Assembly (NCBI RefSeq): GCF_009601025.1
Contig: NZ_WIVE01000006.1
Span: 1 to 64,000, forward strand
DNA: 64,000 bases
DNA from: Roseospira navarrensis
GTDB lineage: Bacteria; Pseudomonadota; Alphaproteobacteria; Rhodospirillales; Rhodospirillaceae
Reading direction: 5' to 3'
A program made the position numbers and the translations under genes. The notes beneath the pieces are model-generated. The model saw nothing but the letters and a program-made list of their open reading frames with translations, was not told where the DNA came from and ran no database searches. Of this stretch, positions 4,082 to 54,042 are shown piece by piece. Every line of letters starts with the position of its first letter. Position 1 is the first letter of the stretch.

Positions 4082-4230
4082 AACGCGCTGACCGCGAGGA
4101 AAGTGCTGTCATGGTCACCGGAGCCGTCGCCTGTTCCGGTCAGGTGTTCCGCTCAGGGCGGGTCTGGCGTGGGCGCGATCCTGTGATAAGCTGCCCGCCC
4201 CGCCCCGGATCCTTCAGACGAGCCCGCCCG

Positions 4231-4515
4231 ATGCCGCCCCTGCCCCGTTTCCGCCTGCCCGTTCCGGCTCCGGCCGTGGCGCGCGCCCTGTGCGTGCTGA
4301 TCCCCGCCGGCATGACGCTGGCCGCCTGTGGCGGCGGCCCGTCGTCGGGGGAGGTCCAGGATCACATGGAACTGTTCTGCCAGACCCACCGCTGTCTGTG
4401 CGTGGAGGACGGCCTGCGCCCCTTCGGCACGGCAGACAAGCAGGAGCCGGACTGGGCCCTGACCGGCGAGCCCAGTTGCCCGCCGGGCTACACCCTGGAA
4501 GAGGTGGACGACTGA
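4231..4515 (+). CDS. small Cys-containing lipoprotein, unknown function
   Basis: A 94-residue protein starting at ATG 4231. A hydrophobic segment (ALCVLIPAGMTLAAC, about residues 18-32) ends in a lipobox-like LAAC followed by GGG, as expected for signal peptidase II processing and lipidation. The mature part is short and acidic and holds four further cysteines (CQTHRCLC and SCPPG), suggesting disulfides or metal binding in the periplasm. I do not recognise a family. The frame is open further upstream to 4111, but that part reads as low-quality coding sequence. The downstream gap carries repeat family B copy 1. Confidence 0.6.
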   Translation: MPPLPRFRLPVPAPAVARALCVLIPAGMTLAACGGGPSSGEVQDHMELFCQTHRCLCVEDGLRPFGTADKQEPDWALTGEPSCPPGYTLEEVDD

Positions 4516-4551
4516 TCCCGACCGCGGCGCTCCGTCGTGCCGGACCGCCTG

Positions 4552-4669
4552 GGCCGGCGCCCTCGGCGCCGCATCGCGGCGCCTGTCCAAAGATGGCCGC
4601 TCAAGGGGCGGCCGGGGCGGCGGCGGCGACGACCCGGACATGTCCGGGGCGTCGCCGATCAGGATCAAT
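4552..4669. repeat. dispersed structured repeat, family B, copy 1
   Basis: About 118 bp built of three successive inverted repeats: a GGCGCC-rich hairpin, a GGCCGC...GCGGCC hairpin, and a 15-bp-armed hairpin at 4625-4656 (GGCGACGACCCGGAC / GTCCGGGGCGTCGCC), ending in GATCAGGAT. The second copy is at 43711-43831. It sits between the convergent lipoprotein and NifX-like genes, the place for a bidirectional terminator. Confidence 0.8.
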
Positions 4670-5127
4670 CAATGACCCCCACAGCAGCCGTGACCGTGGT
4701 CATGGTCATGATCGTGGTTGGGGCCTTGGCCGTGCCCATGCCCATGCCCATGACCCTTCCCCTGACCGTGCCCACCGCCGCAGGAAACGGCCGTCGGCTG
4801 GCTGATGTCGATGCGCCCTTCGGCGATGCCGCGCAGCACGCTGGCGGGGTCGGTGTCCTCCGGGCTGGTCACGACGATCACGCCGCGCGCGCCCATGCGG
4901 CGCAGGAATCCCGCGCCGCATTCCTTCGTCACCAGCACATCCAGAGCGTCGATCGGATGCGGGCCCTGCCCATGGAATTCGTGCAGGGTCATCTCGGGCG
5001 GCAGGTCGATGGGCTCCAGCGGGGTCGCCGCGCCGTCCGCCGCCAGATCGTAGACCAGAAACCGGCGGGTCCGTCCGGCATGGGCGGTGATGGTCTTCAG
5101 GTTCTGACTGGTGAATCCGATCCGCAT
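4669..5127 (-). CDS. dinitrogenase iron-molybdenum cofactor (NifX/NifB-C) domain protein with His-rich tail
   Basis: A 152-residue protein beginning MRIGFTSQNLKTITAHAGRT, the usual opening of the small NifX/NifB C-terminal-type cofactor-binding domain; LDVLVTKECGAGFLRRMGARG fits the core of that fold. After about residue 122 comes a tail rich in HGHG and HDHD with a CCGGH end, which should bind transition metals. ATG 5127 is preferred because AGGAG lies just before it; an in-frame ATG at 5208 would add 27 poorly supported residues. No nitrogenase genes are nearby, so a general role in iron-sulfur or metal-cofactor handling is more likely than nitrogen fixation. A Fur-like site lies upstream. 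Confidence 0.8.
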   Translation of the reverse strand: MRIGFTSQNLKTITAHAGRTRRFLVYDLAADGAATPLEPIDLPPEMTLHEFHGQGPHPIDALDVLVTKECGAGFLRRMGARGVIVVTSPEDTDPASVLRGIAEGRIDISQPTAVSCGGGHGQGKGHGHGHGHGQGPNHDHDHDHGHGCCGGH

Positions 5128-5197
5128 GATGGCTCCTGAGGCTTGGGACGGGCGGGGACATGGTCCACCCCCCGCTTTACGCGTCCGCGCCTCAAGG

Positions 5198-5219
5198 GCG
5201 AATAACAATTCTCAATCGC
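5198..5219 (-). promoter_or_regulatory. possible Fur/Irr-type operator before the NifX-like gene
   Basis: The sequence GCGATTGAGAATTGTTATTCGC (minus strand) is a partly symmetric, AT-rich 22-mer in an otherwise GC-rich gap, 70 bases before ATG 5127. TGAGAAT and TTATTC halves resemble Fur-box hexamers. The match is by eye and imperfect. Confidence 0.35.
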
Positions 5220-5261
5220 AGCGAAATAAAGTCCGCCCGGCTGTCGCACCACCCGGCCCAT

Positions 5262-5293
5262 GGCTATTGTCCTGACGGGTCAGGACAATAGCC
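5262..5293 (-). terminator. perfect 15-bp hairpin after the secretion operon
   Basis: Arms GGCTATTGTCCTGAC (5262-5276) and GTCAGGACAATAGCC (5279-5293) pair perfectly around a two-base centre, nine bases past the last gene of the minus-strand operon. There is no T-run, so it is either a weak terminator, a 3'-end stabiliser, or a protein-binding palindrome. Confidence 0.5.
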
Positions 5294-5301
5294 GGCCAGA
5301 C

Positions 5302-7410
5302 CTACGTCCCCCACTCGCGCACCAGCACGATCAGCACGGAGCGCGCCACACGCGCAAACAGGCTGCGGGCCTCGCCGGCGATGTGGACCCGGCCCACCTG
5401 CTGCAGGTCCGGCGGCGGCCCGTCCAGCGCCACCCGCACACGGTAGACCGCCTGCTCGGGCACGAGGCCGCCCTCCGCCCGGCGCGTCGCCAGCGGCCCG
5501 CCATGGACCGAGCCGAGCACCGCATCGGGTCGCGGCAGCGGCCGCGCCGGCGATGCGGAAACGGCCACGACCCGTCCGGCGCGGGACGGGGCTTCGGTCC
5601 CGACGGGATGGAACACGGCCTCCGCCCCCACCGCGAACCGAGCCAGATCGCCCTCCTCCACATAGGCGTCCACCACCGGCGGTGCGTCCGCCCGCACCAG
5701 CGCCAGCCGGGTGCGCGGCGACAGCCACAGGCCCGGGCGCAGGTCGGGCAGCGGATCCAGCACCGTGCCCGCCAGGGGCGCGACCAGGGTCAGGCGCGCC
5801 GCCTGCTCCGCCAGGGCGCGGACCTCGGCCTCGGCCTGGGCGAGGCGCTCGCGGATCTCGCCGGTCGCCGCCCGCACCACCGGGTCGAGGGCGGCGATCC
5901 GCAGTTCCCGGCGGGCGGTGGCCCGGCGCGCCTCAGCCTCGGCCAGCCCCAGCGTGATGTCGGGCGCCGCGAACACGTAGAGCACATCCCCGGCGGCCAC
6001 ACGGTCGCCGCGCGCCGCCGCCACCCGCTCCAGGCGGGCGGGAAACGGCAGGTACAGCGCGGCCGTCTCGGCCCCCTTCAGCACCGCCGGCGCGGCGATG
6101 CGCGTGGTCCAGGGCACCAGACCGGCCACCACCAGCCCCGCCAGCACCGCGCCGGTGACCGCCGTCCGCCGCCGCCGCAGGATGCGGCGGCGCAGCCGGC
6201 CCCAGACCCGAAGCTCCCGCCAGATGGGCAGCAGGATCAGCCACACGATCTCGGCCACGAACAGCACCACGCCCAGCGCCTTGAAGGCGAAGGTGTAGAC
6301 CAGCAGCGCGATGCCCAGGAACACCACCAGCCGATAGAGCCACGTGGCGATGCCGAAGGCGATCAGGAACCGACGCCGCCCGGGCGCCAACGGCTCCGGC
6401 GGCGGATCGCCCAGGCCGAACAGCCGCTCGCGCAGCCACCACCTGGCCAGCGCGAACGCGCGGGCGTGCAGGTTCGGCATCTCCAGCGCGTCCATGAGCA
6501 GGAAATAGCCGTCGAAGCGCATGAACGGGGAGGCGTTGATGGCCAGCGACGACACCCAGGTGACCGCCGCCAGCACGAACGCCGCCTGCCGCGCCGGACC
6601 CTCGGGCAGCAGGCTCCAGGCCAGCGTGGCCCAGGCCGCCACGGTCAGTTCAGCCCGCATGCCCGCCGCGCCCACCAGCAGCCGCCGCCGCCGCTCGCGC
6701 AGGGTCCAGGCCGCGTTGACGTCGGTGTACAGCATGGGCAGCAGCACCATGAAGGCGACCCCCATGGCCGGGACGCGACAGCCGAACGTCTTGGCGGTGT
6801 AGGCGTGGCCCAACTCGTGGACGGCTTTCACGGCCACCAGCGCGACCGCGAAGGCGACCAGCCCGGCCGGGGTGAAGGCCCGTTCGAACGCCGCCACGAA
6901 CAGGTCCCCCTGCCGCACGATCATCACCAGCCCCAGCAGCAGCGCCGCCACGGTCGCCCCCAGGAACGTCCGCGAGCCCAGCCAGGCCACCGCCCCCCGG
7001 GTGGCGGACAGAAACCCGTCCGGCCGCACCAGCGGCACCCGGAAGAACAGGTAGCGGTGGACCAGCCACGCCCCCGGCGAGGGCCGCGCCGCGCGCGCCG
7101 CCTCGGCGAGGCGCCGGGTCCCGGCCGGGCTGGCGTCCTCGGTCAGTTGCTGGTCGCGCAGGAACACGGCCAGCGCGGCCACGTCATCCGGCGCCAGCCG
7201 CAACGTGGTCTCGCCCGAGACGGCGGCGGCCACCGCCGCAGGGCGCCCCAGATCCCAGCGCACGAGCATTTCGAACGCCGGCCAGTCGATGCGGACATAG
7301 CGGTTGCGGGCCGGGTCGCCGATGGTCCAGGTGGGCGCGCCGTCCAGGGCCGGCGGCCCGGAATGAAGGGTCAGGTCGGCGCGCAATGGCGGCAGAGCGG
7401 CGGTGGTCAT
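5302..7410 (-). CDS. M50-type membrane metallopeptidase fused to a HlyD-like adaptor
   Basis: This 702-residue protein joins three parts. Residues 1-~110 form a soluble N-terminal region (possibly PqqD/RRE-like, inferred). About 145-440 is a polytopic membrane region with an M50 zinc site: HELGH at 198-202 within KAVHELGHAYTA and the third ligand Asp300 in RFDGYFLLMD. After a last membrane segment (~415-435, VTGAVLAGLVVAGLVPW) comes a periplasmic HlyD-type barrel-sandwich and hairpin with the lipoyl-like segments around LERVAAARGDRVAAGDVLY. It is the last gene of the operon, three bases after the GAF-HlyD gene. It probably takes part in exporting or processing the large surface protein; the ATPase of a classical type I system is absent. 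Confidence 0.85.
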   Translation of the reverse strand: MTTAALPPLRADLTLHSGPPALDGAPTWTIGDPARNRYVRIDWPAFEMLVRWDLGRPAAVAAAVSGETTLRLAPDDVAALAVFLRDQQLTEDASPAGTRRLAEAARAARPSPGAWLVHRYLFFRVPLVRPDGFLSATRGAVAWLGSRTFLGATVAALLLGLVMIVRQGDLFVAAFERAFTPAGLVAFAVALVAVKAVHELGHAYTAKTFGCRVPAMGVAFMVLLPMLYTDVNAAWTLRERRRRLLVGAAGMRAELTVAAWATLAWSLLPEGPARQAAFVLAAVTWVSSLAINASPFMRFDGYFLLMDALEMPNLHARAFALARWWLRERLFGLGDPPPEPLAPGRRRFLIAFGIATWLYRLVVFLGIALLVYTFAFKALGVVLFVAEIVWLILLPIWRELRVWGRLRRRILRRRRTAVTGAVLAGLVVAGLVPWTTRIAAPAVLKGAETAALYLPFPARLERVAAARGDRVAAGDVLYVFAAPDITLGLAEAEARRATARRELRIAALDPVVRAATGEIRERLAQAEAEVRALAEQAARLTLVAPLAGTVLDPLPDLRPGLWLSPRTRLALVRADAPPVVDAYVEEGDLARFAVGAEAVFHPVGTEAPSRAGRVVAVSASPARPLPRPDAVLGSVHGGPLATRRAEGGLVPEQAVYRVRVALDGPPPDLQQVGRVHIAGEARSLFARVARSVLIVLVREWGT

Positions 7411-40081: not shown

Positions 40082-43000
40082 GTGCTCAAACGTCAAATCG
40101 AGAAGGCCCTGCACGAGACCAGGGGCCGCGTCACCCTGGCCGGCATGCCGGAGGGCCAGGACGCCCATGTGCTCGTCGCCCTGGCCCGCGCCCGCAAGGG
40201 CCGCCCGCTGCTGCATGTGGCGCGCGACGACGTGCGCCTTGCCACGCTGGTCGAGCTGGCCCGCTTCATGGCCCCGGACCTGCGGGTGCTGGACCTGCCG
40301 GCGTGGGACTGCATGCCCTATGACCGGGTCTCGCCGCACGCCGACATCCTGGCCCGGCGGATCGACACCCTGGCCGCGCTGGCCGCCCTGCCGCCGGAGG
40401 GACCGGGCCCCGAGCCGCTGCTGGTGGTCACCACCGTCAACGCCATCACCCAGCGCGTGCCGCCGCGCGACTCCCTGGCCGGAGCCTCGTTCCCCATCCG
40501 CAAGGGCGAGAGCCTGGACATGGAGGCGCTGCTCGCCTTCCTGGGCCGGACCGGCTATGTCCGCGCGGAACAGGTCATGGAGCCGGGCGAGTACGCCGTG
40601 CGGGGCGGTCTGGTGGACCTGTTCCCGCCCGGCCTGTCCGATCCCCTGCGCCTGGACCTGTTCGGCGACGAGGTGGACGCCATCCGCGTGTTCGATGCCG
40701 TCAGCCAGCGCACCACGGGCGACGCCGACGGCGTCATCCTGAAGCCCATGAGCGAGCTGACGCTGGACGACGAGTCCATCGCCCGGTTCCGCACCGGCTA
40801 TCGCGAGCTGTTCGGCGCGCCCCGGCGGGACGACCTGCTGTACGAGAGCGTCTCCGCGGGCCAGGCCATGCCGGGCATGGAACACTGGCTGCCGCTGTTC
40901 CACGCGGGCATGGACACGCTGCTGGCCTATCTGCCCGAGGCCGCGATCACCCTGGACGCGGACACCGAGGCCGCCCGCGTCTCCCGCTGGGAGCAGATCG
41001 AGGAATACCACGCCGCCCGGCGCGACATCGCCCAGTCCGGGTCGGGCGAGGGCGGCATGATCTATAACCCCATCCCGCCCGACCGGCTGTACCTGACCGA
41101 AGAGGACTGGGCGCGGATGCTGGCGGCGGCGCTGCGCGTGTTCGACCTGTCGCCCTATGCGCCGGCGGAGGTCGCACCCAACACCCTGGACATGGAAGGC
41201 CGGCCGGGCCGCGACTTCGCCGACGTGCGCGCGCGCACCGGCGAAAACGTGTTCGAGGCCGTCGCCACCCATGCCGCCGACCGCATGGCGCAGGGCAAGC
41301 GGGTGGCGCTGGCGGCGTACTCGCTGGGCTCGCGGGATCGTCTGGGCGGGCTGATCCGCGACCACGCGGGCCAGGGCGGGGGGGCCGCCCGGCTGGAGAC
41401 CGTCGAGTCCTGGGCCGATCTGGCCACGGCGCCCAAGGAGGCGCTGGCCCTGGTGGCGCTGGGCCTGGACCGGGGCTTCGAGACGCCGGACCTGGCCGTC
41501 ATCGCCGAACAGGACGTGCTCGGCGACCGCCTCGCCCGGCCGCAGAAAAAGAAGCGCAAGGCCGACTCCTTCATCCAGGATGCCTCGACCCTGGTCGAGG
41601 GCGATCTGGTCGTGCATGTGGACCACGGTATCGGCCGCTATGACGGGCTGGAGACCCTGCAGGTCGGCGGTGCGCCGCACGACTGCATCCGCGTGACCTA
41701 TGCCGGCGAGGACAAGCTGTTCGTGCCGGTCGAGAATATCGAGGTCCTGTCGCGCTATGGCTCGGAAACCGCCGGCGTGCAGCTCGACAAGCTGGGCGGC
41801 GTGGGCTGGCAGGCGCGCAAGGCCAAGCTGAAGAACCGCATCCGCGACATGGCGGACAAGCTGATTCAGGTCGCCGCCGCCCGCCATCTGCGCAAGGCCG
41901 AGAGCTACGCCCCGCCGGAGGGCCTGTACGACGAGTTCGCCGCCCGCTTCCCCTACGCCGAGACCGACGACCAGCTCCGCGCCATCGGCGAGACCATCGA
42001 GGACCTGAGCAGCGGGCGGCCCATGGACCGCCTGATCTGCGGCGACGTGGGCTTCGGCAAGACCGAGGTGGCGCTGCGCGCCGCCTTCGTCGCCGCCCTG
42101 TCCGGCCAGCAGGTGGCGGTGGTGGTGCCCACGACCCTGCTCGCCCGCCAGCACTACAAGGTGTTCAGCGAGCGGTTCGCGGGGCTGCCGGTGCGGGTCG
42201 GCCACCTGTCGCGGCTGGTCACCGGCAAGGCCGCCACGGCCACCAAGAAGGAACTGGCCGACGGCACCCTGGACATCATCGTCGGCACGCATGCGCTGCT
42301 CGCCAAGAGCATTTCGTTCAAGAATCTCGGCCTGCTCATCATCGACGAGGAGCAGCACTTCGGTGTCGCCCACAAGGAGCGGCTGAAACAGCTCAAGAGC
42401 GACGTGCATGTGCTGACGCTGTCGGCGACGCCGATCCCCCGCACCCTGCAACTGGCGCTGACCGGCGTGCGGGAAATGAGCCTGATCGCCACCCCGCCCG
42501 TGGACCGGCTGGCGGTGCGCACCTTCGTCCTGCCGTTCGACCCGGTGGTGATCCGCGAGGCCATCCTGCGCGAGCGCTATCGGGGCGGGCAGTGCTTCTA
42601 TGTCTGCCCGCGCCTGAAGGACATCGACGAGGTGGCCGAGCGCCTGGAGGCCCTGGTCCCCGAGGTCAAGGTGGCCATCGCGCACGGCCAGATGGCGGCC
42701 CGGCAGCTTGAAGACGTCATGACCGCCTTCGCGGACGGGCAATACGACATCCTGCTGGCGACCAACATCATCGAGTCCGGCCTGGACATGCCGCGCGTCA
42801 ACACGATCATCATCCACCGCGCCGACATGTTCGGGCTGGGGCAGTTGTACCAGTTGCGCGGCCGCGTGGGCCGGGCCAAGGCGCGCGGTTATGCCTATCT
42901 GACCATCCGGCCGAACCGGACGCTGTCCAAGGCCGCCGAAAAGCGTCTGGACGTCATGCAGACGCTGGACACCCTGGGCGCCGGGTTCACCCTGGCCAGC

Positions 43001-43609
43001 CACGACCTGGATATCCGGGGCGCGGGCAACCTGCTGGGCGACGAGCAGTCCGGCCACATCAAGGAAGTCGGGATCGAGCTGTACCAGCACCTGTTGGAAG
43101 AGGCCGTGGCCGCCGCCCGCGCCGGCGAGGGCATGGAGGCGCTGGACGATGCGTGGTCGCCCCAGATCACCCTGGGCTCGCCGATCCTGATCCCCGAAGG
43201 CTACGTGCCCGACCTGGGAGTGCGGCTGTCGCTCTATCGCCGCATCGGCGACGTGACGGCGGACGACGAGATCGAGACCCTGGCCGCCGAGATGATCGAC
43301 CGCTTCGGCCCGCTGCCGACCGAGGTGGAGAACCTGCTCAAGGTGATCCGCATCAAGGTTCTGTGCCGCGCGGCCAACGCCGAGAAGATCGACGCCGGGC
43401 CGAAGGGCGCCGTGATCGCGTTCCGCAACAACGACTTCCCGAACCCGGCCGGGCTGGTGCAGTTCATCGGCAAGAACACGGCGACGGTCAAGCTGCGCCC
43501 CGACCACAAGCTGGTCGCGAAACGCGACTGGGACGACCCCGCCCGCCGGCTGCAGGGCCTGCACCGGCTGATGAAGGATCTGGCGGCGGTGGCTGGCGGG
43601 GCCTCGTGA
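40082..43609 (+). CDS. mfd: transcription-repair coupling factor
   Basis: A 1175-residue Mfd, which removes RNA polymerase stalled at DNA damage and recruits UvrA. In order: UvrB-homology N-terminus (LDLPAWDCMPYDRVSPHADI), RNA-polymerase-interacting CarD-like domain (VEGDLVVHVDHGIGRYDGLE, ~505-530), RecG-like helicase with Walker A GDVGFGKTEVALRA and DEEQHFGV, motif VI around QLRGRVGRAKARGYAY, and the C-terminal TRCF domain. GTG 40082 is the first plausible start and gives the usual length; its ribosome binding site is weak. It stands alone between repeat elements. Confidence 0.97.
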   Translation: MLKRQIEKALHETRGRVTLAGMPEGQDAHVLVALARARKGRPLLHVARDDVRLATLVELARFMAPDLRVLDLPAWDCMPYDRVSPHADILARRIDTLAALAALPPEGPGPEPLLVVTTVNAITQRVPPRDSLAGASFPIRKGESLDMEALLAFLGRTGYVRAEQVMEPGEYAVRGGLVDLFPPGLSDPLRLDLFGDEVDAIRVFDAVSQRTTGDADGVILKPMSELTLDDESIARFRTGYRELFGAPRRDDLLYESVSAGQAMPGMEHWLPLFHAGMDTLLAYLPEAAITLDADTEAARVSRWEQIEEYHAARRDIAQSGSGEGGMIYNPIPPDRLYLTEEDWARMLAAALRVFDLSPYAPAEVAPNTLDMEGRPGRDFADVRARTGENVFEAVATHAADRMAQGKRVALAAYSLGSRDRLGGLIRDHAGQGGGAARLETVESWADLATAPKEALALVALGLDRGFETPDLAVIAEQDVLGDRLARPQKKKRKADSFIQDASTLVEGDLVVHVDHGIGRYDGLETLQVGGAPHDCIRVTYAGEDKLFVPVENIEVLSRYGSETAGVQLDKLGGVGWQARKAKLKNRIRDMADKLIQVAAARHLRKAESYAPPEGLYDEFAARFPYAETDDQLRAIGETIEDLSSGRPMDRLICGDVGFGKTEVALRAAFVAALSGQQVAVVVPTTLLARQHYKVFSERFAGLPVRVGHLSRLVTGKAATATKKELADGTLDIIVGTHALLAKSISFKNLGLLIIDEEQHFGVAHKERLKQLKSDVHVLTLSATPIPRTLQLALTGVREMSLIATPPVDRLAVRTFVLPFDPVVIREAILRERYRGGQCFYVCPRLKDIDEVAERLEALVPEVKVAIAHGQMAARQLEDVMTAFADGQYDILLATNIIESGLDMPRVNTIIIHRADMFGLGQLYQLRGRVGRAKARGYAYLTIRPNRTLSKAAEKRLDVMQTLDTLGAGFTLASHDLDIRGAGNLLGDEQSGHIKEVGIELYQHLLEEAVAAARAGEGMEALDDAWSPQITLGSPILIPEGYVPDLGVRLSLYRRIGDVTADDEIETLAAEMIDRFGPLPTEVENLLKVIRIKVLCRAANAEKIDAGPKGAVIAFRNNDFPNPAGLVQFIGKNTATVKLRPDHKLVAKRDWDDPARRLQGLHRLMKDLAAVAGGAS

Positions 43610-43710
43610 TCAGCGGTTCATACGGCCGACGGAGAGGTTCATCCTTTTCGTTGGCCGGCCGGCCCGCCGCTGGCATCGCTGTGCGATGCCGGTTTTGAAC
43701 AGGACTGGGG

Positions 43711-43831
43711 GTCGGCGCCCTCGGCGCCCTCGGCGCCATATTGGGGCGCCGGTCCACAGATGGCCGCCCCTGGGCGGCCGGGGCGGCGGAGGCGATGAGC
43801 CGGATCAGTCCGGTTCATCGCCGATCAGGAT
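43711..43831. repeat. dispersed structured repeat, family B, copy 2
   Basis: About 121 bp matching 4552-4669: a GGCGCC hairpin with an extra CTCGGCGCC unit, CAGATGGCCGCCCCTGGGCGGCC, and a hairpin with arms GGCGATGAGCCGGA / TCCGGTTCATCGCC, ending GATCAGGAT. Bases that differ from copy 1 in the last hairpin change on both arms. It sits between convergent mfd and lptE. Confidence 0.8.
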
Positions 43832-43868
43832 AAGAGAGCAGACCGGACGTGGCGGTGCGGCATCCCGC

Positions 43869-44396
43869 CTAGGGATAGCGGCCCCCGCTCCCCCGTTTCG
43901 CGAAATAGGCCACCACCTGCATCTCGATGTCCGCGGCCAGGATCTGGGCCATGTCGGCCTCGGTCTTGGCGCGGTTGCGATCGGTCGCGTATTGATTGTC
44001 CAGCACGTTGTAGACGGCGGACGACCGCGTCGAACCGTCGGCCACGCCAAGCGGACGCCCGTCCTCTCTCCGGGCCGCCAGCGACCAGTTGGCCCTCGCG
44101 TTCAGGTTGGCCAGGGTCGCTTCGTCATCGCGGCGAATGCCCAGATTGCCGGTTGTCACCGTCACCGTCACCTGCAGTTCGTACCGCGGGTTCGGCCCGG
44201 TTTGCAGACGGTGCAGCAGCGCATTGCGCAGAAGCTGCCCGACCCGTTCGGAAATCGGCCCCACGGCCACGGACGGCAGTTGGGGCCCGCCGCGGCCCCG
44301 CGTTCCGTACACCGGACGGAAGCCGCAGCCCGCCAGGGCAAGCAACGGTCCCGCCGCCAGAACCGCGCGGCGGGCGATGGCGGCGGGCCGGCTCAT
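43869..44396 (-). CDS. lptE: LPS-assembly lipoprotein LptE
   Basis: A 175-residue outer membrane lipoprotein that plugs LptD during LPS insertion. Signal and lipobox read [21 protein letters not shown] (Cys24), the GC-GFxPxYG start being diagnostic of LptE/RlpB. Then IADYE-type central strands and a basic C-terminus follow. Its ATG overlaps the leuS stop (ATGA). The holA gene that usually follows in alphaproteobacteria is absent here; repeat family B and convergent mfd come next. Confidence 0.92.
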
Positions 44397-53864: not shown

Positions 53865-53979
53865 GTCATCCCGAGGGCGCGGAGCGACCGAAGGATCTCG
53901 GGCCGGGGCGTGCATCTCCCGGCCCGGAGTCACCCGTCCTCCCGAGATCCTTCGCCGCCTTCCGCGGCTCAGGATGACA
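53865..53979. repeat. dispersed palindromic repeat, family A, copy 4 (diverged)
   Basis: GTCATCCCGAGGGCGCGGAG and GACCGAAGGATCTCGGG are followed, after a GCCGGG/CCCGGC centre, by CCCGAGATCCTTCGCCGCC and CGGCTCAGGATGACAC: an inverted pair of the same blocks as copies 1-3. It lies in the gap between the ABC-2 permease and DUF2065 genes. Confidence 0.75.
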
Positions 53980-54042
53980 CGAAGGAGGCCGCGAGAGTCG
54001 GACCCTTTCACCGCTGGTATACAACTGGACCCGTGGAGCATC

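Follow-up and report, generated by a model that had tools for sequence, protein, structure and literature searches.

A repeat of covarying hairpins in Roseospira navarrensis as part of a probable MITE-like transposon that inserts at TNA

Introduction

The BOX elements of Streptococcus pneumoniae have a modular build of boxA, boxB and boxC. They are named in a review of bacterial MITEs, elements that are short and gene-less, carry terminal inverted repeats, duplicate their target, lie in intergenic DNA and form stable stem-loops (PMC10969869). Within the IS5 family, the IS1031 group takes 5'-TNA-3' as its target and produces exclusively a 3-bp direct repeat (PMC12016507). The REP/BIME and CGTC/GTAG-tagged repeats are palindromic and intergenic, form alternative complementary stems, and are common beside 3' ends and between convergent genes (PMC3733652). 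As to the origin of paired changes in such stems, template switching can create and maintain stems, and switching between the two arms can introduce multi-base paired changes in one step (PMC8794818).

Here we analysed a window of 64,000 nucleotides of Roseospira navarrensis (positions 1 to 64,000 of contig NZ_WIVE01000006.1, assembly GCF_009601025.1), for which a preliminary description had reported a structured repeat in two copies with compensatory changes, called family B.

Results

Extent and parts of the window copies

The two copies, at 4552-4665 and 43711-43831, align and share their hairpins as first described, and the paired differences reported for the last hairpin are found as well: the C:G pairs that copy 1 has at arm positions 6 and 9 are replaced in copy 2 by T:A and G:T, respectively. 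Copy 1 has in addition an A.G mismatch at arm position 8 of this hairpin, which was missing from that account. Both copies fold far more stably than shuffled sequence (z of -4.9 for copy 1 and -4.7 for copy 2). The original coordinates cover a partial element, since copy 1 starts near 4516 and copy 2 near 43621; the element is a mosaic with the ends TACCG...GTA, of which the stretch reported earlier takes in no more than the 3' half (Table 1). Nor do two copies make up the family, which numbers at least about 110 in the genome and has a diverged third relative within the window, resembling variant ii copies elsewhere. With 0 Rfam matches at gathering score in the window, neither copy fits any Rfam family, and a tRNA scan found nothing.

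Table 1. Parts of family B elements, and an unoccupied relative of a host repeat, in the window
Feature	Position	Strand	Basis or remark
Copy 1, candidate left target triplet TGA, also the stop codon of ORF 4111-4515	4513..4515	+	
Copy 1, degenerate hairpin 1 and module Z	4516..4624	+	
Copy 1, hairpin 4	4625..4656	+	Covariance model match, 47.1 bits, E 2.2e-6
Copy 1, 3' tail GATCAGGA	4657..4664	+	Followed by TCA at 4665-4667
Third, diverged member: hairpin 4 variant ii GGCTATTGTCCTGA CGGG TCAGGACAATAGCC, tail GGCCAGACC	5231..5302	+	Covariance model match, 25.1 bits, E 0.012
Copy 2, candidate left target triplet TCA (TNA)	43618..43620	+	Sequence and family TNA rule
Copy 2, hairpin 1 with left terminal inverted repeat TACGGCCGACGG...	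43621..43660	+	Module opens many copies directly after TNA
Copy 2, module W (CGCCGCTGGCATCGCTGTGCGATGCCGG...CTGGGGG)	43661..43710	+	Common to copies C22:67313, C153:16737 and C180:13875 of the same genome
Copy 2, module Z, two GC-rich hairpins (GGCGCC... and GGCCGCCC..GGGCGGCC)	43711..43784	+	
Copy 2, hairpin 4, covarying 14-bp stem	43791..43822	+	Covariance model match, 57.4 bits, E 4e-8
Copy 2, 3' tail GATCAGGA, right end	43823..43830	+	Consensus tail CAG(T/G)A, then TNA, in intact copies
Copy 2, right flanking triplet TAA	43831..43833	+	Sequence
Unoccupied paralogue of the repeat holding C122:8889-8966	53928..54012	-	Joined flanks align over 85 bp without gaps, 83.5% identity

Architecture of the family

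A complete element measures about 45 to 290 bp, and its body is a mosaic in which one to five GC-rich hairpins stand between short terminal inverted repeats, TACCGNCCGNCG on the left and TACCGNCCGNCG or TACTGATC/TACTGGCC on the right; inverted end pairs are seen in individual elements. When TACCGNCCGNCG preceded by TNA was scanned with one mismatch allowed, the genome gave 106 matches against 31 for the reversed pattern used as control, and congener G003 gave 112 against 18. In the common form, hairpin 1 consists of varied palindromes, hairpin 2 is GCCGGC(N)CGAC(N)G(N)GCCGGC, hairpin 3 is GCCGCGAAGCGGC, and hairpin 4 has a 14-bp stem with the loop CGAG, followed by the tail GATCAG(T/G)A. Unlike this form, window copies 1 and 2 have Z as their middle module, to which copy 2 adds module W, a module also present in full-length copies of G003. 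Hairpin 4 exists in at least three types, namely type i, that of the window copies, type ii (GGCTATTGTCCTGACGAGTCAGGACAATAGCC, with the tail GGCCAGTA) and type iii (GGAGCCGCGCGCCCC..., with a longer 3' arm carrying CGTCGGCCGGTA at its end). The loop GACGAGTC and a GCGAAGC mini-hairpin are conserved although the stem sequence varies. Small members of about 45-60 bp (e.g. L306 and L317) contrast with full members of about 290 bp in G003; L317 (contig C131, about 42,465-42,524) is an element of about 60 bp flanked on each side by TCA, its only component being variant ii of hairpin 4. The elements have no coding capacity, and all copies but one lie outside predicted genes.

Copy number and distribution

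A DNA search of the genome returned more than 40 copies. The covariance model called for by the preliminary description was built on the common three-hairpin form (31 sequences, 26 pairs) and found at least 109 matches at E<=0.01 in the same genome, about 110 copies, and at least 6-31 in each of five congeners, so that congeners differ about 18-fold in copy number (6-109 among the matches listed). A DNA query against 60 relatives, this genome included, matched all congeners and few of the 54 genomes of other genera (best E 4.8e-9), and an exact-pattern scan of named genomes gave no match. As judged from these searches, the family appears to be largely confined to the genus Roseospira. The genus assignment agrees with a congener locus whose sequence is identical to a contig of Roseospira marina DSM 15113. 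At one locus (L112, C66:16099-16335) three members stand in tandem beside a gene that in congener G004 has a single member next to it (L066); an ancestral insertion in common and local amplification are both candidate origins of this shared position.

Target duplication and unoccupied sites

The family is flanked by a 3-bp direct repeat of the form TNA. Among 61 copies with ends assignable by rule, the left and right triplets agree in 18, compared with 5.7 expected; 18 was reached in 0 of 20,000 shuffles, and a shift of the right frame by 1-4 bases abolishes the signal. Where such rule-placed copies have TNA on both sides, the triplets are identical in 16 of 16 (7.1 expected; 0 of 20,000 shuffles), namely TGA in 10, TCA in 3, TTA in 2 and TAA in 1. 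This last result holds for rule-placed copies only, and the window copies are not among the 61, since their 5' halves have a different build and the rule does not place their ends. They have TNA on both sides in unequal triplets (TGA/TCA for copy 1, TCA/TAA for copy 2), and therefore their own duplications are not intact; some small and long members, likewise outside the 61-copy test, also have TNA triplets that differ between the two sides. Type iii and small elements have the same ends, and several of their copies have the same duplication. An intact duplication is absent in 43 of the 61 copies, which we attribute to age and to different 3' modules.

One element, C122:8889-8966, sits inside another repeat whose unoccupied paralogues show a single triplet where the occupied copy shows two. 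For this comparison the flanks were joined with one triplet removed before alignment; one such paralogue lies in the window itself (Table 1) and a second unoccupied relative is found in L155. The triplet matches and the unoccupied sites together therefore demonstrate, for the family, insertion with duplication of a 3-bp TNA target. The stretch 53928-54012 on the minus strand is itself a member of another dispersed repeat family (TACCAGCGGTGARAGGG...TCATCCTGAGCCGCTGAAGGCGGCGAAGGATCT), which also has TACC at its start. At five congener sites orthologous to filled sites we saw neither a copy nor an empty allele, and the intergenic DNA there could not be aligned. Two other readings of the ends were rejected: a closing helix TNATAC/GTATNA, in which the middle base is unpaired and obeys the direct-repeat rule instead, and an IS200/IS605-type insertion beside TTGAT, prompted by the 5' TGAT and ruled out by the 3-bp duplication.

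Gene context and stop codons

Both window copies lie between convergent genes, as originally stated: copy 1 between an ORF of 134 aa (4111-4515, +) and a His-rich ORF (4669-5208, -) that matches a dinitrogenase-cofactor domain weakly and below the cutoff, and copy 2 between mfd (40082-43609, +) and lptE (43869-44396, -). The mfd-lptE junction is missing from the congeners, where both genes have other neighbours, and copy 2 is therefore lineage-specific. The interval 43609-43869 is thus a junction unique to this genome, with the element at a rearrangement junction.

Using a home-made gene finder, we classified 103 copies outside genes for which both neighbours were resolved, 38 of them convergent, 60 tandem and 5 divergent. 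The check for orientation bias suggested in the preliminary description revealed none, tandem copies being sense in 29 cases and antisense in 31. The flanking triplet is exactly the neighbour's stop codon in 27 of 114 copies, and in all 27 this codon is TGA or TAA and in none TAG, which makes up 67 of 295 stops (chance about 0.001). The coincidence arises because TGA and TAA both fit TNA, as do TCA and TTA, their forms on the opposite strand, and the neighbour's protein is unchanged because the duplicated stop codon stays intact. The convergent position is in part, then, a consequence of TNA targeting, stop codons included, and avoidance of promoters and genes would account for the remaining placement bias.

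Covariation of the hairpins

Pairing is preserved across many copies. In the 31 sequences of the model, 95.4% of cells are paired, in comparison with 89.0 +/- 0.5 after shuffling, and there are 46 double changes against 13.0 when shuffled; the cells counted are not independent events. What these numbers establish is either a constraint on structure or a process by which structure is preserved, and to this extent the selection for structure proposed earlier is partly supported. Paired changes do not by themselves establish the family B repeat as a working RNA.

If selection acted on one transcribed strand, G.T mispairs should outnumber A.C mispairs and most changes should be transitions. Among 83 hairpin-4 stems, in which 92.3% of cells are Watson-Crick, we counted 16 G.T and 20 A.C mispairs, that is, no excess of G.T (p 0.62), and of the 138 cells with a double change, 108 require a route that avoids G.T. 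These counts argue against selection on a one-strand RNA but, as here too the cells are not independent events, they are no proof. The hairpins could nevertheless be selected as RNA if they served as bidirectional 3'-end elements, terminators or exonuclease stabilisers, maintained after insertion; strong covariation, very stable folds and placement at gene ends with few divergent locations are in agreement with this. We consider it unlikely, given that G.T is not above A.C on the element strand, that most double changes are unable to go via G.T, that tandem contexts are without orientation bias, and that the hairpins have no T-run and no terminator-like site overlaps either window copy, whose sequence does not support termination. 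These observations do not establish an RNA function or termination for what is a mobile element.

Template switching between arms, or a constraint on both strands of the DNA, fits the covariation better than one-strand RNA selection. The latter constraint would apply if the hairpins were DNA-level signals under both-strand selection, such as cruciforms or sites for a nucleoid protein or gyrase, a reading that accommodates the symmetric G.T and A.C mispairs and the loop and mini-hairpin kept despite variable stems. It becomes improbable in view of the roughly 18-fold spread in copy number among the matches listed for the congeners, and of the five orthologous sites without a copy, from which no single site appears to be required.

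Search for a transposase

The profiles PF01609, PF13340 and PF13586 gave no match in the genome, an absence that is weak in a draft assembly. PF13586 transposases of the congeners have ends that differ from those of family B wherever ends are recognisable, and no transposase with family B ends was found in the draft genomes of R. navarrensis and its congeners. IS5-type transposase genes with the ends GAGTGTCTGTCCGG occur in two congeners (L299 in G005 and L298 in G003) and are absent from this genome.

The genome contains a single RAYT-like Y1 transposase gene (L041 1200-2200; contig C106, about 245.5-246 kb). This Y1_Tnp gene and the dispersed intergenic palindromes would suit a REP/BIME-type repeat moved by a RAYT (Y1, TnpA-REP) transposase, but the repeat that borders the gene is another one, GGCGGGTTGCGCC...CGAACCCGCCCTAC, which probably represents a REP family belonging to the gene itself, and the terminal inverted repeats and 3-bp target duplication of family B, together with the unoccupied sites, disfavour movement by Y1. 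Y1-mediated REP movement is not known to yield a 3-bp target duplication, and we regard this origin as very improbable. Chance similarity or GC-rich palindromic noise is refuted by the fold z-scores, copy number, covariation and triplet matches and has practically no likelihood.

Discussion

Considering these alternatives, we think it highly probable that the repeat is the 3' half of a MITE-like non-autonomous transposon that inserts at TNA, often at stop codons, and whose hairpins may be copied from arm to arm. This explanation joins what is observed across the family, namely dispersed copies, common ends, target duplication, coincidence with stop codons and covariation without a strand signature. 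A DDE-type transposase acting in trans, with an IS1031-like target choice, would move the elements; insertion at TNA duplicates the triplet and leaves intact a stop codon used as target; and counter-selection would purge insertions in genes and promoters, so that the survivors would be found at gene ends, often between convergent genes. The paired changes may be kept mainly by template switching between hairpin arms, the copying of already paired master elements would also preserve pairing, and selection on a one-strand transcript would not be their main keeper. More tentatively, and as one possibility that could well fail, stop codons may act through TNA as harmless landing sites on either strand while the multi-hairpin body diversifies by arm template switching.

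A mobile element can thus exceed 100 copies at gene ends with little damage, its target triplet regenerating the stop codon it enters. The copies in this genome, at least about 110, and those of the congeners make a large natural data set for compensatory changes that does not assume an RNA function, and in which selection and template switching can be tested directly against each other. If the element is indeed a transposon diversified by template switching, its RNA-like covariation would exist without RNA function and would constitute a natural false positive in covariation-based RNA discovery.

Literature searches returned no report of this Roseospira hairpin repeat family. Like the BOX elements of S. 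pneumoniae, its members are short, mobile and modular, but their sequence is unrelated, the host is another one, and their hairpins covary extensively. With the REP/BIME and CGTC/GTAG-tagged repeats (PMC3733652) they share every trait given in the Introduction, and they differ from REP/BIME in having terminal inverted repeats and a target duplication and in copies unlinked to the RAYT gene. The TNA target with a 3-bp repeat is also that of the IS5/IS1031 group; the ends TACCGNCCG (TACCG...), unlike the GA-type ends of IS1031 (GAACC... in ISLrh), and the lack of a match to a transposase of that type in the draft assembly of this genome are the reasons why family B is not assigned to this group. 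Closest are the bacterial MITEs, to which family B corresponds in being short, multi-copy and gene-less, with terminal inverted repeats, target duplication, an intergenic location and stable stem-loops (PMC10969869). It departs from them in its very high GC content, in a duplication that often falls on a stop codon, in a body made of exchangeable covarying hairpins, and in that no parental transposase was found; unusual features are the hairpin mosaic with its covariation and the coincidence with stop codons. We rate the general kind, a bacterial MITE, as already known and the Roseospira family itself as a new variant of it.
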